From a virus: a stretch of DNA of 37,180 bases. This document shows positions 31,220 to 37,180 of the stretch, piece by piece. The notes under the pieces are model-generated. The model was not told the origin of the DNA. It saw only the letters and a program-made list of their open reading frames with translations, and searched no databases. Made by a program: the position numbers and the translations under genes. The stretch covers positions 1 to 37,180 of the IMG/VR virus record IMGVR_UViG_3300009151_000177; one strand, given 5' to 3'. Position 1 is the stretch's first letter. Each line of letters begins with the position of its first letter.

Positions 31220-32107
31220 TTAGAATCCGTGCTCTATAGCTGTCTGGTCGATGAGTGCTATTTCTTTAAATTGTAGTGTTAGGTTGATTTGTGTTGGTGA
31301 TCCATCTGCGTGAGCTGACCAAATTCCATTGGGTGAATAATTCACATCCACGCTCGTTAATACACTCTCTTTAACCTTAGTTATGTATTGATTTTCTCCA
31401 TTGTCTTTCTGTATAAATTGCAGGATAAATGTGTTTGGTACAATAAACGCCATACCACCATTACCCGCTTGGATTTTTGGTGCTGCATTCTTCCTAAATG
31501 CCATAATGATTTTTTTAATTGTGTCCGATTCCGCTCTATTTTTTGGTGTCATCTGAAATGCTAATTGGTATGATCTGAATTCTATACCATCGAACAATAG
31601 TTGTTGTTGTGGGTTTATTGCATATCCAGCAGTGTTCATTCCCAATGCTGCAGCATTAGTATCCACCGCAGAAACCGCACCACTGGCAGCAGTATCATTG
31701 AGTGCATCTTTAAGGCTGACATCTGAATATGACGATTCGTATGTGAAATTGATAGTGTCTGGCATATATAGAGAGATGACATCACCCGGAGTTGATCTCT
31801 TTGGCTGGAATTGTAGTTGTACTTTTTGCATAATGTCAGTTACCCCACTAACCGACCCCGAGGCAAATCCACCAAGCGCACTAATCGAGGCACCTAGAGC
31901 ATTAAAAGCACTTGATAATAGACTAGTTGGTTCTGTTTTATATGCGGTGAATACTACTATGTGTCCTTTATTGGTATGTCCCAAATCAGCAGGATATGAT
32001 AGTGTGGATGTAGCGTATGGATTAGTATACAGCAAACTCAGTGGGTTTGATGATGCATTTGGTGCATAATTACTCTGGGTTTGCTGTGAATGGAACGTTA
32101 TGGCCAT
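31220..32107 (-). CDS. 48: Tail tube cap protein gp48-like, 295 aa
   Basis: First gene of the leftward unit. A helical N-terminus (to about 95) includes a Gly/Ala/Ser-rich hydrophobic stretch (ALGASISALGGFASGSVSG). The C-terminal two-thirds is tube-like: FRSYQLAFQMTPKNRAESDT (about 178), IKKIIMAFRK, PNTFILQF, VLTSVDVNYSPNGIWSAHAD and LTLQFKEIALI. These strands match gp48-type tube initiators/caps of T4-type phages. T4 gp48 is longer (364 aa). AGGA lies 6 nt before the ATG. It caps the baseplate and, with gp54, seeds tube polymerisation. A late promoter lies at 32143-32150. Confidence 0.85.
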   Translation of the reverse strand: MAITFHSQQTQSNYAPNASSNPLSLLYTNPYATSTLSYPADLGHTNKGHIVVFTAYKTEPTSLLSSAFNALGASISALGGFASGSVSGVTDIMQKVQLQFQPKRSTPGDVISLYMPDTINFTYESSYSDVSLKDALNDTAASGAVSAVDTNAAALGMNTAGYAINPQQQLLFDGIEFRSYQLAFQMTPKNRAESDTIKKIIMAFRKNAAPKIQAGNGGMAFIVPNTFILQFIQKDNGENQYITKVKESVLTSVDVNYSPNGIWSAHADGSPTQINLTLQFKEIALIDQTAIEHGF

Positions 32108-32128
32108 TGGATATCCTAATGAGTTTCA

Positions 32129-32136
32129 TATAAATA
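32129..32136 (+). promoter_or_regulatory. T4-type late promoter (TATAAATA), rightward
   Basis: An exact TATAAATA in the divergent intergenic region, reading right. Transcription would start near 32142, giving about 20 nt before the leader ORF at 32162 and about 67 nt before gp4. It faces the leftward promoter at 32143-32150; the octamers are 6 bp apart. Confidence 0.8.
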
Positions 32137-32142
32137 TATAAG

Positions 32143-32150
32143 TATTTATA
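32143..32150 (-). promoter_or_regulatory. T4-type late promoter (TATAAATA), leftward
   Basis: An exact TATAAATA reading left (TATTTATA on the plus strand). Transcription would start near 32137 and reach the gp48 start at 32107 after about 30 nt. Each of the two facing promoters occupies the other's start region. Confidence 0.8.
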
Positions 32151-32161
32151 ATGGGGGAACA

Positions 32162-32212
32162 ATGAGAAAGTATATTAGCAACACAGAGAGTACATTATAT
32201 GTTTCATTATGA
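32162..32212 (+). CDS. Putative 16-codon leader ORF ending on the gp4 start codon
   Basis: ATG at 32162 is preceded by a strong purine-rich site (GGGGGA at 32153-32158, 3 nt before ATG) and encodes MRKYISNTESTLYVSL. Its TGA (32210-32212) overlaps the gp4 ATG (32209-32211) as ATGA. The gp4 start itself has no good ribosome site within 15 nt. Ribosomes that load at the leader could therefore re-initiate at gp4. The peptide is hydrophobic at its end but has no recognised function. It may be only a translational loader. Confidence 0.5.
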   Translation: MRKYISNTESTLYVSL

Positions 32213-32658
32213 GTAGACCAAAACCACATATGTGGTATCCAAGAAATCCTAAAAAATACCTGGGAAACCCTAATAATATTTGCGTTAGATCTTCGTGGGA
32301 AACCAAGGTGTGTGTATGGTTAGATACATCAACAAACATATTAGAATGGTCATCTGAAGAAATAGTGATACCTTATATATCACCGGTAGATGGTAAATAT
32401 CACAGATACTTTCCAGACTTCTTTGTACGAGTACAGCAACAAGATGGTACAGTAAAATCGATGATCCTTGAGGTCAAGCCTCACTCACAAATCATAGAAC
32501 CAAAAATTAAAAAGAGAATAACCAAGGCATATATAAATGAGGTAGCTACCTATGGAGTTAATCAAGCAAAGTGGAGAGCTGCAATAGACTACTGTCTAGA
32601 TAGGGGGTGGGAGTTTAGAACTCTCGATGAATATGATTTAGGAATTAAACAGAGATAA
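32209..32658 (+). CDS. 4: Head completion protein gp4 (nuclease-fold), 149 aa
   Basis: Length matches T4 gp4 (150 aa). The opening PKPHMWYPRNPKKYLGNP and VRSSWETKVCVWLDT are typical of gp4. The PD-(D/E)xK-like core is visible: E31 in the ETK helix, D70 in RYFPDFF and E88-x-K90 in LEVKP. gp4 acts on the head after packaging and before tail joining, and its nuclease role is a prediction from the fold. No stop-free upstream extension exists (TAG at 32176), so the start is 32209. In T4, gene 4 also lies next to baseplate gene 53. Confidence 0.9.
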   Translation: MSRPKPHMWYPRNPKKYLGNPNNICVRSSWETKVCVWLDTSTNILEWSSEEIVIPYISPVDGKYHRYFPDFFVRVQQQDGTVKSMILEVKPHSQIIEPKIKKRITKAYINEVATYGVNQAKWRAAIDYCLDRGWEFRTLDEYDLGIKQR

Positions 32659-32666
32659 ATACACGT

Positions 32667-33335
32667 ATGAAACAATCAAAACTTACAGACCTCGCCAACC
32701 ATTACACAGCACTTGATCTCGTTAGATTTTCTAGCGAGTCTATTAGGTGGCTGAATGCCAATGTGCAGAAATTGAGAACTGCTCGAAGTATTTCTAATGG
32801 TGTTATACAGGAACCAGGCAGACCTGTAACTAAAGTCGCAAAGGGTAAGCTGTTCTTTTTTAAGTATGACCCGAAGTATGCTGACACATTGCCATATTAT
32901 GATACGTTCCCATTGGTGTTAATATTAGATGAATATACGGAAGATGGGCATAAGGGGTTTCTTGGATTAAATCTACATTACTTACCGGTAAAAGCTAGAG
33001 CTGTATTCCTAGATCAGTTATTACAAAAGGGTGTGTTTGGTGCGGAAAAACATGGCGGTCGATATGACATGGCCGGAGATATTCGCAAGATACAAATATC
33101 GTATGAAATATTGAAATCTGTAAAACGACTTAAGATGTTCGAACCGTGCTTAAAAAGATACCTAACTGCCCGTTTGCGATCACCTTTACTACACATAGAG
33201 CCACATGAATGGGAAACTGCATTATTTCTTCCGGTGGAGCAATTCAAGAAAGCTAGAAAGAACATTGTTCACTCGGCATCGATGCAGTCAATAAAAGACA
33301 AGATCGATAGTGACGCATCAAAAAACACAGGATGA
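32667..33335 (+). CDS. Conserved T4-type phage protein, possibly gp2-like DNA end protector, 222 aa
   Basis: A conserved core near residues 70-110 reads FKYDPKYADTLPYYDTFPLV, then GFLGLNLHYLPVKARAVFLD. A second block near residues 145-195 contains ISYEILKSV, FEPCLKRYLTARLRS and WETALFLPVEQFKKA. I have seen this layout beside gp4 in T4-type marine phages. Assignment to gp2 (protector of packaged DNA ends, 274 aa in T4) is suggested by T4 order, where gene 2 adjoins gene 4, but I do not recognise clear gp2 residues. It could equally be another baseplate or head factor. It begins 8 bp after gp4. Confidence 0.6.
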   Translation: MKQSKLTDLANHYTALDLVRFSSESIRWLNANVQKLRTARSISNGVIQEPGRPVTKVAKGKLFFFKYDPKYADTLPYYDTFPLVLILDEYTEDGHKGFLGLNLHYLPVKARAVFLDQLLQKGVFGAEKHGGRYDMAGDIRKIQISYEILKSVKRLKMFEPCLKRYLTARLRSPLLHIEPHEWETALFLPVEQFKKARKNIVHSASMQSIKDKIDSDASKNTG

Positions 33336-33342
33336 TACAAAA

Positions 33343-34044
33343 ATGAGTAAGTTATCGGAGTTTAGATCAAGTTTTACTACTGAACTTGCTAGGGCTAGTA
33401 GATTTGAAGTGCAAATACCAACAGCATCAATTTCTGATTTTGATAATAAGAAGTTGACGCTTAGGTGTGAATCTGCACAATTGCCAGGAAGACATCTAGA
33501 GACAATTCAACAAAAAACATATGGGCCATATGAGCAGCTCCCATATCACACCACATATAACGACATAGATTTGACTTTTATAGTGAGTGGTGATATGTCA
33601 GAAAAGTCATTCTTTGATGGCTGGATGGAGTTTATAAACCCAACGTCAACTTTTGATATGGAGTATAAAGATAATTATACCACAAATATTATAATAACTC
33701 AATATGATTTAGCTGAAAATCCAATGTATGTAGTTACATTATTTGAGGCGTATCCTATAAATGTGAATCAATTGGATCTAAATTGGTCATCGGAAGACAC
33801 ACATAAACTAAACGTAACGTTTGCATATACATATTGGTCAGGTGGCACAACCTCATCTAGTAGTATGCAACCTAAAGCTATAGGTGCCAATGCTGGTGGT
33901 ATCCCAGTTAACAAGTCGTTGCTTAATGGGCAACAAAATGAAACTAATCCATGGACATATCAAGTAAATGGAGTAAATCATGTATCAACATCAACACCAC
34001 CAACCTCAATAAATGTACCAGTAACATACCCAACTACACCATGA
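33343..34044 (+). CDS. 54: Tail-tube-fold protein, gp54/gp19-like, 233 aa
   Basis: The start is taken as ATG at 33343 (MSKLSEFRSSFTTELARASR), 7 bp after the upstream stop. The frame extends back to GTG at 33310, but that would overlap the previous gene. Tube-fold strands include RFEVQIPTASI, LRCESAQLPGR, IDLTFIVSGDM and LNVTFAYTYWSGG at about residues 150-165; the last is a typical end of this fold. A low-complexity Ser/Thr/Pro tail follows. T4 gp54 (320 aa) seeds the tube and gp19 (163 aa) builds it. I prefer the gp54 role because a hub operon follows, but gp19 cannot be excluded. Confidence 0.75.
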   Translation: MSKLSEFRSSFTTELARASRFEVQIPTASISDFDNKKLTLRCESAQLPGRHLETIQQKTYGPYEQLPYHTTYNDIDLTFIVSGDMSEKSFFDGWMEFINPTSTFDMEYKDNYTTNIIITQYDLAENPMYVVTLFEAYPINVNQLDLNWSSEDTHKLNVTFAYTYWSGGTTSSSSMQPKAIGANAGGIPVNKSLLNGQQNETNPWTYQVNGVNHVSTSTPPTSINVPVTYPTTP

Positions 34045-34057
34045 TTAGGAGATTATA

Positions 34058-34783
34058 ATGGCATTACCAAAAATTGATAGTCCAACATTTGAATTGATTT
34101 TACCAGTATCAAAGAAGAAAATAAAGTATAGGTCATTTAACGTTAAAGAACAGCGTAATCTTTTGATTGCAATGGAAGCTAACGATAATGAAACCATACA
34201 ACAAAGTATCGGTGATATTTTACATAACTGCACACTTACCGAGGGTATTGATATTGATACGTTGCCAGTGATTGACGTGGAATACTTCTTTATAAATTTA
34301 AGAGCACGTTCGGTAGGTGATGTTGTTGATGCTAGATATAAGTGCAACAATACTGTAGATGGTGTTGAGTGTCAGAACATAATGGAATACCCACTTGATC
34401 TCAATAACATTAAAGTTGATTGTGCAGAAGAGGTTAGTCCAGAAATACAACTAACCAACAAGTTTGTCCTTAAGCTAAAACACCCAGACTATGCTTCTAT
34501 CAAAAATGTAGAACAATATGATGACGTAAACCAATTAACGTTTAGTGTTATCGCTAATAGTGTTGAATATTTATATGATGGTGAACAATTCTATTATTCG
34601 CATGAAGTTGATCATAAAGATATGGTTGAATTCATCGAAAGCTTAAGCAGCGATCAATTCAAGAAAATCGAACACTTCTTCGACAACCTACCACGAATAC
34701 ATCAAGATATCGTTATAACATGTAAAAAGTGTGGGTTTGTTCACACTATTAGTGTGGAGGGACTCGAGAATTTTTTCGATTAG
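34058..34783 (+). CDS. 26: Baseplate hub assembly chaperone, gp26-type, 241 aa
   Basis: The protein belongs to the T4 baseplate hub assembly (gp26) type: ALPKIDSPTFELILPVSKKK, YRSFNVKEQRNLLIAME, FFINLRARSVGD. Four Cys residues (C96, C105, C222, C225, the last pair as CKKC) could form a metal site; the end reads ISVEGLENFFD. T4 gp26 is 208 aa. TAGGAG lies 7 nt before ATG. The last codons contain a T TTT TTC slippery heptamer (34771-34777) that would divert some ribosomes into the -1 frame ORF ending at 34968, making a 303-aa fusion (240 residues plus 63). The gene sits between the tube-fold protein and the hub lysozyme, the usual place for chaperones before a tape measure. Confidence 0.88.
   Translation: MALPKIDSPTFELILPVSKKKIKYRSFNVKEQRNLLIAMEANDNETIQQSIGDILHNCTLTEGIDIDTLPVIDVEYFFINLRARSVGDVVDARYKCNNTVDGVECQNIMEYPLDLNNIKVDCAEEVSPEIQLTNKFVLKLKHPDYASIKNVEQYDDVNQLTFSVIANSVEYLYDGEQFYYSHEVDHKDMVEFIESLSSDQFKKIEHFFDNLPRIHQDIVITCKKCGFVHTISVEGLENFFD
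34756..34777 (+). promoter_or_regulatory. Putative -1 frameshift signal: internal SD (GGAGGG) plus T TTT TTC
   Basis: GGAGGG (34756-34761) is followed by a 9-nt spacer and the heptamer T TTT TTC (34771-34777), read in the gp26 frame as TTT TTC. Both tRNAs could re-pair one base back. The gp26 stop follows at 34781-34783. The -1 frame is open from CGA (34777) into the 61-aa ORF. The SD position resembles the stimulator in E. coli dnaX. A stem of 6 bp (GAAATT 34805-34810 with AATTTC 34822-34827) lies downstream, rather far for a stimulator. Confidence 0.6.
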
Positions 34784-34968
34784 TGTTGCGTCACGATAAT
34801 CTACGAAATTATTATAAAACCAATTTCTCGATGATGCAACACCACAAGTACAGTTTAACAGAATTAGAGTCTATGTTGCCATGGGAGCGTGAAATATATG
34901 TGGCAATGTTGATTAAGTTTGTTGAAGACGAAAACAATAAAATTAAAGAGAAACAACGATCTCGATGA
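34783..34968 (+). CDS. Hub chaperone extension ORF (-1 frame of gp26; gp51-like position), 61 aa
   Basis: The ORF can start at GTG (34783), which overlaps the gp26 stop by one base, or be entered by frameshift from 34777. It encodes a basic, helix-rich peptide with YKTNFSMMQHHKYSLTELES and MLPWEREIYVAML, then a Glu/Lys/Asn-rich tail. The motif L-x-(D/E)-(S/N)-M-P-x-E-R-x-Y resembles the C-terminal part of frameshifted tail chaperones (T part of gpGT). In T4, gene 51 follows gene 26, but T4 gp51 is 249 aa, so this is a positional comparison. No well-placed ribosome site exists for independent initiation, which favours fusion or coupling. Its stop overlaps the next ATG (ATGA). Confidence 0.75.
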   Translation: MLRHDNLRNYYKTNFSMMQHHKYSLTELESMLPWEREIYVAMLIKFVEDENNKIKEKQRSR

Positions 34969-36401
34969 AACTACCATCCTTACCATCTATACCAAAAAGT
35001 GTAAAGAACCTTGCTTCCGATATTGGTGGTAAGGTGGCTAGTGCTGTCGGAAATGCTAGTGTGTCTAAAAATACACGAGACAAGATTTCTGGTGTGGTTA
35101 ACAAATTTAGTCCTAAATCTATAACTAACGCTATATCAGAAAAACCACCAGCACTACAATCTACAGCTAGTAGATCTTCCGGTGATAACATCCCCGCAGC
35201 CGAAAAGATATTGGGGTCGATTTATAAGTTATTGCAGATCAATGAAAAGGAGCTAGTTAAGGAACGAGAACTTAATATTAGCAAATTAACAGATGATCGT
35301 AGCAAAGAAGAACTATGGCATAAACAACTAATCGATGCACTACGATACAGAAAGACCGGCGGTGAAGAAGGTGCCCCACCAGAAAAACCAACAGCGACCA
35401 AACAAGGAGCCAAACCTAGCGGAAAAGGTTCTAGGGGTCGTAAAGGTGCTGGTAAAGGTGCTGGTAAAGGTGCTGGTAAAGGTGCTGGTAAAGGTGGTAA
35501 AGGTGCTGGCGAAGGAAAAGCAACTAAAGTCGGTAAGGGTGCTGGTAAAGGTGCTGGTAAAGGTGCTGGTAAAGGTGCTGGTAAAGGTGCTGGTAAAGGT
35601 GCTGGCGAAGGTGGTGCTGGTAAAGGTGGTAAAGGTGCTGGCGAAGGAAAAGCAACTAAAGTCGGTAAGGGTGCACCAGAAGGACCCCCAATAACATTAG
35701 GACCAGGTGATGGACCTATCATGAAAATGATAGCAAAACACGAGGGTGATGGTCGTGATAAGAAGACGGGAAAATATACACCATATCAAGATTCTTTAGG
35801 GTTGTGGACGGTTGGTGTTGGTCATTTAATAGGTAATGGTAAAAGTCTCCCTCCAGATATCCCGAAAGACAGAGAATTTTCTCAGGAAGAAGTTGATGCT
35901 ATGTTCGCTCAAGATTATGCTGTACACAAGAAAGCTGCGATGAAAATTCCTGGGTATGATAAGTTAAACAATACCGGTCAAGCTGCTGTTGTTGATTTGA
36001 CATTTAATATGGGTCCCGCTTGGTACAAGAAATTCCCTAATGCATCCGCAGCACTTGCCGAGGGTGATACCGAAACTTTTGCTAAAGAGATGGAAGGTAG
36101 TGCGTGGTACAAGCAAGTTGGTGGTAGAGCAAAAGAAATTGTTTCCATGATCAGAAATGGCAAGAAAACTGGCGACGAAGCGTCTGCAGTAGCAACTTCA
36201 GCCCCCGCTGCACCTGCATCAGCACAAGTAGCGTCTGCATCTAGCACAAACAAAGACCTAAAGGATGATCTTTCTGCCAGCAACAAGGCAACTAATACAA
36301 CGATTAATAACGTATCCTCCAATAAATCATCGACAACCCAGCAAGCATCTAACGAACCTGTAGATGATAGATCAGCATACCAGAGAAAATTACATGGCTA
36401 A
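34965..36401 (+). CDS. Hub/tail protein with T4-type lysozyme domain and (GAGK)n linker, 478 aa
   Basis: Residues 1-130 are a basic, helical region (IPAAEKILGSIYKLLQINEK). Residues 161-238 are a low-complexity GAGK linker. Residues about 250-390 form a T4-type lysozyme (GH24): E260 in HEG, D276 in YQDS and T282 in LWTVGVGH align with the E11/D20/T26 triad, followed by AAVVDLTFNMGP and GSAWYKQVGGRAKEIV. A Ser/Ala-rich tail ends HKL-like (YQRKLHG). It would cleave peptidoglycan, presumably on injection rather than lysis, because it lies in the hub operon directly after the chaperone ORF and has large non-enzymatic ends. Its ATG overlaps the previous stop. It could alternatively be a tape-measure-like or free endolysin; no signal peptide is visible. 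Confidence 0.85.
   Translation: MKLPSLPSIPKSVKNLASDIGGKVASAVGNASVSKNTRDKISGVVNKFSPKSITNAISEKPPALQSTASRSSGDNIPAAEKILGSIYKLLQINEKELVKERELNISKLTDDRSKEELWHKQLIDALRYRKTGGEEGAPPEKPTATKQGAKPSGKGSRGRKGAGKGAGKGAGKGAGKGGKGAGEGKATKVGKGAGKGAGKGAGKGAGKGAGKGAGEGGAGKGGKGAGEGKATKVGKGAPEGPPITLGPGDGPIMKMIAKHEGDGRDKKTGKYTPYQDSLGLWTVGVGHLIGNGKSLPPDIPKDREFSQEEVDAMFAQDYAVHKKAAMKIPGYDKLNNTGQAAVVDLTFNMGPAWYKKFPNASAALAEGDTETFAKEMEGSAWYKQVGGRAKEIVSMIRNGKKTGDEASAVATSAPAAPASAQVASASSTNKDLKDDLSASNKATNTTINNVSSNKSSTTQQASNEPVDDRSAYQRKLHG
35445..35678 (+). repeat. Tandem 12-bp (GAGK) repeats and duplicated larger unit
   Basis: Four copies of the 12-bp unit GGTGCTGGTAAA span 35445-35492, five span 35538-35597, and one lies at 35613-35624. 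A 62-bp sequence at 35481-35542 recurs exactly at 35613-35674, 132 bp (44 codons) away. The region encodes residues 161-238 of the hub lysozyme. All periods are multiples of three, so length changes would stay in frame. Confidence 0.9.
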
Positions 36402-37180
36402 TAAAAAATCAAGTACTAGTACAGAAAAAGAAGAGTTGGTGGCTCCGGTAAAGCACATTCGGTCTAGAACATATACAAAACCAAAAATTCAAGACGAAGA
36501 TGACATATTAACTGCTATTGCTAAATTAGGTGGATTAAATCGAGGTATTAGTAAATCCGAAGGTATTGACCAGAAAGAGAGTCAAATTAAAAGAGCGGGG
36601 ATACTTCCGGTGTTTACCAAAGGTAAAGGTGATTCTTTTGACGGAATGGCAGAGATATTAAGAGGATATGGTTTTGATACTCCAGATGCAGAAAGTTTAT
36701 TGGTGCAAGTAACCGCAGCAGTTAATCAGGGAGATATGATATATAACCCTAGAGGGTATGAAATTGCCGCAGAAAAATTACATCAAGAGGAATATGATAG
36801 TCAACAAGAAAGGTTGGAATTCGAGAATACTACTGCTGACCCATTACAGCCATCCAAGGAATTATCGGAAGCGCGATCAACATTAGTAGGCACATTAAAA
36901 AATCAAGTAAACCAGTTACAAAATGACGAGGCTGCTAATATTCATGAAACTGAAAATTTACTAGAAGAAAGGGTAGAGGTATTAGAAGAAAAGGTTGATG
37001 TACTAGAAAATGCTGCACCAGAGCAAGTTGGGAGTGCGGCTGCAAGTCTACCAACACCAGAGGAACTGGTAGCCAAGAAAGCCACGGCAGAAAAGCTTGT
37101 CAAAGACAAAGAGTTTATATCTGCAATAACTGTTACAAATGAAGCACTACTAAAAAAGAATAAAGCTGCTAATAAAGTAA
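36394..37180 (+). CDS. Unfinished ORF with possible polyvalent-protein-associated domain, coiled coil
   Basis: The ORF starts at ATG 36394, overlapping the lysozyme-gene stop by eight bases, and is open to the right edge (at least 262 codons). It begins MANKKSSTSTEKEELVAPVK. Residues about 38-130 (ILTAIAKLGGLNRGISKSEG, GKGDSFDGMAEILRGYGFDT, ESLLVQVTAAVNQG) resemble the helical associated domains found in large polyvalent phage/mobile-element proteins. A long Glu-rich helix (NLLEERVEVLEEKVDVLENA, about 188-207) follows. Position after the hub lysozyme suggests a tape measure, hub component or ejected protein. The rest lies outside the window, so this is unsettled. Confidence 0.75.
   Translation, partial: MANKKSSTSTEKEELVAPVKHIRSRTYTKPKIQDEDDILTAIAKLGGLNRGISKSEGIDQKESQIKRAGILPVFTKGKGDSFDGMAEILRGYGFDTPDAESLLVQVTAAVNQGDMIYNPRGYEIAAEKLHQEEYDSQQERLEFENTTADPLQPSKELSEARSTLVGTLKNQVNQLQNDEAANIHETENLLEERVEVLEEKVDVLENAAPEQVGSAAASLPTPEELVAKKATAEKLVKDKEFISAITVTNEALLKKNKAANKV

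Follow-up and report, generated by a model that had tools for sequence, protein, structure and literature searches.

A T4-type gene 26 and its overlapping -1 reading frame as a probable frameshifted tail assembly chaperone gene

Gene 26 and the small ORF that overlaps its 3' end in the window (the whole virus record analysed here, 37,180 bases) very probably form one tail assembly chaperone (TAC) gene that gives products of two lengths through a -1 frameshift. Comparison with related loci indicates that the slippage signal is almost certainly real. The original prediction had put forward the -1 frameshift, the analogy with the G/GT chaperones and the production of a fusion from a single gene, and each of these was supported by the comparative evidence. 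The features that define the two products were as follows.

34058-34783 (+), gene 26-type short chaperone (TAC-N): zero frame, 241 aa; PF12322, phrog_150 and AlphaFold2 model
34771-34777 (+), slippery heptamer T TTT TTC: TTT and TTC are zero-frame codons; X XXY YYZ form
34781-34783 (+), zero-frame stop TAG: one codon 3' of the heptamer
34777-34968 (+), -1 frame extension (TAC-C): 63 sense codons from CGA at 34777, then TGA at 34966-34968

The short and long products

The 3' end of gene 26 reads GTG GAG GGA CTC GAG AAT TTT TTC GAT TAG, and inspection of the sequence bore out the claim that the heptamer stands in the correct frame for -1 slippage. The -1 frame has a stop at 34750-34752 and is open from 34753 to 34965. 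The predicted long form therefore comprises 240 + 63 = 303 aa, and the 303-aa fusion proposed beside the 241-aa protein, with its frame running to 34968, was likewise found in the sequence.

The 241-aa product matched PF12322 with an E-value of 6e-55, which places it in the T4-like TAC family, and phrog_150 with an E-value of 6.5e-59. No relative turned up when PDB sequences were searched with profiles. In the AlphaFold2 model of the 241-aa product (pLDDT 86), residues 1-88 resembled three known structures: 2ob9, the tail assembly chaperone of HK97 (Z 7.2, 84 residues aligned), YqbN 3klu (Z 7.3) and the phage-inducible-island protein 5ir0 (Z 5.7); the Z score fell to 2.7 at the first row below these three, where the rows were unrelated. 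A Foldseek comparison with the HK97 TAC gave an E-value of 1.4 and a probability of 0.51. The model thus suggests a TAC-N fold for the N-terminal domain of gp26, a Z of about 7 alone being moderate support.

For the profile searches, closer subsets of the divergent alignments A1 and A2 were used. The -1 product matched phrog_634 ('baseplate hub assembly catalyst') with an E-value of 4e-30 and also matched the C-terminal end of phrog_150. A tail profile of 16 rows, T4 gp51 among them, scored T4 gp51 at 1.8e-17 and the gp51 of Aeromonas phage 31, which is independent of the profile, at 1.3e-14. These matches identify the extension as a homologue of the C-terminal part of T4 gp51. A small ORF of the KVP40 record had been noted earlier as similar to the same C-terminus. 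The tail was modelled as two long helices linked by a short one (pLDDT 75, pTM 0.47); with this weak model the top Foldseek match was ZZ1 gp51, at an insignificant E-value of 0.2.

Conservation of the slippery site and origin of the extension

Megablast with positions 32000-37180 as the query returned nothing from phage records. Relatives were collected as fetched loci scanned with profiles of the gp26 and tail parts, giving 253 loci, of which 171 representatives remained after dereplication at 90% nucleotide identity. As the relatives were mostly metagenomic and phylogenetically non-independent, the locus counts below are not numbers of independent events, and significance is given as null expectations rather than p-values.

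The tail lay in the -1 frame and overlapped gene 26 in 252 of the 253 loci. In the sole exception (L045), the tail ORF was in another frame and the gp26 match ended at profile position 176. A heptamer of the form T TTT TT(C/T/A), in frame within the overlap, was present at 169 of the 171 non-redundant loci: 142 had T TTT TTC, 17 T TTT TTT and 10 T TTT TTA, leaving two with none. With the amino acids held fixed, synonymous codon choice would be expected to produce such heptamers in approximately 76 of the 169. Of the 173 Phe-Phe pairs elsewhere in these gene 26 homologues, only 16 were encoded by T TTT TTY. The heptamer-bearing loci included Kyanoviridae-like, Pelagibacter, Caulobacter, Vibrio and Aeromonas phages, and the heptamer was present also in Desulfovibrio and Sinorhizobium phages. 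Outside the 171-locus set, a like pattern was seen in the named phages P-HM2, phiM12, phiAS5, Desulfovibrio phage 7757 and KVP40. The frameshift layout, derived independently here, is therefore the general state among the T4-like relatives sampled.

The zero-frame stop followed the heptamer after one codon in 157 of the 169 representatives. In Pelagibacter phage Mosig EXVC030M (L015:1483-1519), the zero frame runs 8 codons beyond the heptamer, as it does in 3/169 representatives, which gives the short form another C-terminus there.

Both representatives lacking an X XXY YYZ heptamer, one from the Ackermannviridae (L021) and one from a Vibrio phage (L023), kept the -1 layout. The Ackermannviridae loci (L021:2240-2271, L260, L261 and L262) share a conserved ATT TTC ATT TAA, mostly as G ATT TTC A, and Vibrio phage K369 (L023) has CTT TTC AAG TAA. 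The -1 overlap of gp26 and tail, and a homologous tail, are retained in the Ackermannviridae and in K369 alike.

The T run itself offers another route to a fusion. Transcriptional slippage on it would give an mRNA one base longer, from which the fused protein could be read by ribosomes that do not slip, and the run of six Ts, lengthened to seven in the 17 T TTT TTT representatives, is the kind of substrate this would use. A six-T run is, however, short for polymerase slippage, and the dominant form (142/171) has only six Ts and then C. The conserved reading phase, the upstream SD-like element and the downstream hairpin (below) are, moreover, what ribosomal frameshifting needs. Slippage by the polymerase is accordingly considered very unlikely, and slippage by the ribosome remains by far the more probable.

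The start codons available to the extension bear on its origin. In the window, the candidate starts GTG 34783 and TTG 34786 lack a normally spaced SD. The tail could in principle be a separate protein made from one of these by coupled re-initiation, and the first of them does overlap the zero-frame stop (TAGTG); GenBank records annotate short separate 'gp51' proteins, and some ATG, GTG or TTG precedes codon 20 in 98/169 relatives. Against this, 71 of the 169 loci lack any ATG, GTG or TTG in the -1 frame ahead of codon 20, with numbering that starts at the heptamer. Over codons 6-19 of these 71 loci, past the zero-frame stop, differences by codon position were 0.296, 0.204 and 0.503. The segment without a start thus varies mostly at third positions, which argues that it is translated in the -1 frame and from upstream. 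Since the tail is conserved as protein in 71/169 loci where no start exists, independent initiation is no explanation for them, and separate synthesis is refuted as a general account. The position of the first start varies among relatives, and a start codon with a suitable SD for the tail ORF was found in 4/169 only. Separate synthesis would also leave the conservation of the heptamer without a reason, and T4 carries both parts fused in frame. For the window, the probability assigned to two independently started proteins is very small.

The same codon pattern bears on whether the tail is expressed at all. An in-frame fused version exists in T4, and the tail might on that account be the decaying, unexpressed remnant of an ancestral gp26-gp51 fusion. 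The third-position excess in the -1 frame points instead to purifying selection, which refutes decay; the frame is open in 252/253 loci, and the motif [IML]PWER[DE][ILV]Y is conserved in the tail. Decay is considered least probable of all, and a translated extension reached by frameshifting remains the preferred reading. Relatives of the kinds that the original prediction had set against it were few, namely those with no slippery site (2/171), with the tail ORF in another frame (1/253) or with a robust start and SD of its own (4/169).

In public records the extension ORF is unannotated, or shortened with a dubious start, at L016:1462-1689, L267:1177-1383, L261:2220-2405 and L262:2226-2402. Many T4-like records list the extension as a shortened separate 'gp51' or omit it, and re-annotation as one frameshifted gene is due.

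Candidate stimulators and proposed mechanism

Two candidate stimulators flank the heptamer at dnaX-like distances.

34756-34761 (+), SD-like GGAGGG within gene 26 (candidate 5' stimulator): 9 nt upstream of the heptamer; GGAGG core 10 nt away
34783-34842 (+), 3' hairpin, candidate stimulator: 11-bp stem (34783-34793 paired to 34832-34842) that starts 5 nt downstream of the heptamer

The first had been proposed as a dnaX-type stimulator, and its position 9 nt upstream was verified. A GGAGG core 10 nt 5' of the heptamer was present in 50 of the 169 representatives. An SD match of at least 5 nt was found in 88/169; synonymous recoding predicts 51, and none of 200 draws exceeded 66. This excess is modest because the E-G-L peptide by itself gives a purine run.

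The hairpin was found in the present analysis and had no part in the original prediction. In the window it has a predicted energy of -19.1 kcal/mol (z -2.65). Hairpins of -9 kcal/mol or lower, starting 4-9 nt after the heptamer, occurred in 30% of representatives, compared with 5% under the synonymous-codon null. The stem register of the window, with at least 10 of its 11 pairs, was seen in 8/169 loci (0.6 expected), and that of P-SSM2 in 17 loci (0.5 expected); an 8-bp short-hairpin register showed no overall enrichment across the 169 representatives. The stem arms show compensatory changes, such as GTGTTGC/GCAACAC versus GTGCTGC/GCAGCAC. Among relatives with at least 70% tail identity, at least 9 of the 11 window-register pairs were kept in 9/54, with 2.5 expected, so the hairpin is not common to the whole clade. 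RNAalifold on alignment A5 gave a weak consensus of -5.1 kcal/mol; as the rows of A5 were partly picked for the stem, the unbiased tests are the -9 kcal/mol null and the register counts. The 3' hairpins are lineage-specific and not universal.

The picture that we favour slightly for these hairpins is one of repeated gain and loss, in which different lineages carry different 3' structures beside a near-invariant heptamer: a long stem in the window's lineage, a short 11-bp one in the P-SSM2 lineage and an 8-bp one in a few others. Such structures would tune the ratio of short to long form, perhaps to tail length or host ribosomes, and in the Ackermannviridae the -1 shift would persist at G ATT TTC, a non-canonical site.

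With an SD, a heptamer and a stem-loop, the site is dnaX-like. In E. coli dnaX, as in the window, an internal SD lies approximately 10 nt upstream of a two-tRNA heptamer and a stem-loop 5 nt downstream; the dnaX heptamer is A AAA AAG, that of the window T TTT TTC. The dnaX frameshift yields a shorter product, whereas the shift predicted here yields a longer one.

From the gene architecture, its conservation, the homologies and the fold similarity, we infer the slippage itself, its rate and a division of labour between the products. Most ribosomes would end at the TAG at 34781, and their product would be the short form of 241 aa. A minority would pause at T TTT TTC, probably aided by pairing between GGAGGG and 16S rRNA and by the hairpin that begins 5 nt downstream. 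Both Phe tRNAs, one in the P site and one in the A site, would re-pair one base back on TTT TTT, and translation would go on in the -1 frame to yield the long form of 303 aa. On the model of lambda gpG/gpGT, coating of the tape measure or hub components would fall to the short form and recruitment of tube subunits to the helical C-terminal extension of the long form, and neither form would be expected in the virion.

Known systems and gene neighbourhood

By its -1 overlap, its conserved slippery site and the fold resemblance of its N-terminal domain, the pair can be assigned to the G/GT-type tail assembly chaperones. Lambda gpG/gpGT, which would work in a similar way, likewise joins a short protein to an extension reached by -1 frameshifting and is encoded among the tail genes. 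The slippery site of lambda is G GGA AAG rather than T TTT TTC, and the chaperone of the window, unlike that of lambda, adjoins a lysozyme-bearing ORF. To our knowledge, no sequence similarity is to be expected between the window pair and lambda gpG/gpT.

T4 gp26 and gp51 both matched PF12322 (E-values of 9e-64 and 4e-52, respectively); of the two, only gp51 also spans phrog_634 and the tail part of phrog_150. T4 gp51 is best read as a gp26 paralogue fused in frame to a phrog_634-type tail domain. In T4, ZZ1 and Aeromonas phage 31, genes 26 and 51 are separate and on opposite strands, and T4 gp26 is without a slippery site. The T4 proteins are homologous to the short and long forms of the window, but T4 has them from two separate genes, where the window has one frameshifted gene. 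The two equivalent products of T4 appear to come from the paralogous gp26 (short) and gp51 (short domain plus in-frame extension). This match of the paralogues to the short and long products gives gp51, which is essential and poorly understood, a testable role.

Vladimirov, Gautam and Davidson (2022; Virology 566:9-15) are said to have found frameshifting conserved in several T4-like groups, with T4 using separate genes 26 and 51; the gp26 family reportedly represents the short form and the gp51 C-terminal domain the extension. A passage of PMC10274946, citing Vladimirov, Gautam & Davidson 2022 (PMID 34826709), describes some T4-like phages with a short gene and a separate long fused gene, and one in PMC12846349, citing the same work, places T4-like TAC-N genes among those with poly-T -1 frameshift signals. 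In a 2016 review (PMC5009743), T4 was still set apart as the exception among long-tailed phages, for which G/GT frameshifting is the rule. Given these earlier descriptions in T4-like phages, as far as those passages go, the finding is correct but of a known kind, and the implied novelty is the weak point of the original prediction. The locus of the window adds an uncultured member, and the 3' hairpin, the synonymous-codon tests and the group of loci without a start come from the present analysis. Novelty may lie in the member itself, in how widely the signal is conserved, in the 3' hairpin confined to certain lineages and in the odd Ackermannviridae site.

A gp19-like tail tube gene lies directly 5' of the chaperone gene. 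On the other side, the stop of the extension is overlapped (ATGA) by the next gene.

34965-36401 (+), lysozyme-domain ORF after the extension: 478 aa; PF00959 (phage lysozyme), E 2e-12

No tape measure was identified within the window, which ends inside the ORF after the lysozyme ORF; in Cr30 and phiM12, an annotated tape measure or tape-measure-like gene stands two ORFs 3' of the tail ORF. The coding strand switches at approximately 32107-32209: upstream of about 32.1 kb the larger genes are on the minus strand, and the plus strand after it carries head closure, end protector, tail tube and chaperone genes. Within the lysozyme-domain ORF, a 12-base unit giving repeats of the G-K-G-A type recurs approximately 17 times over positions 35440-35674. 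The last, truncated ORF, for which there was no convincing family match, contains a 21-base tandem repeat of 2.4 copies at 36959-37008.
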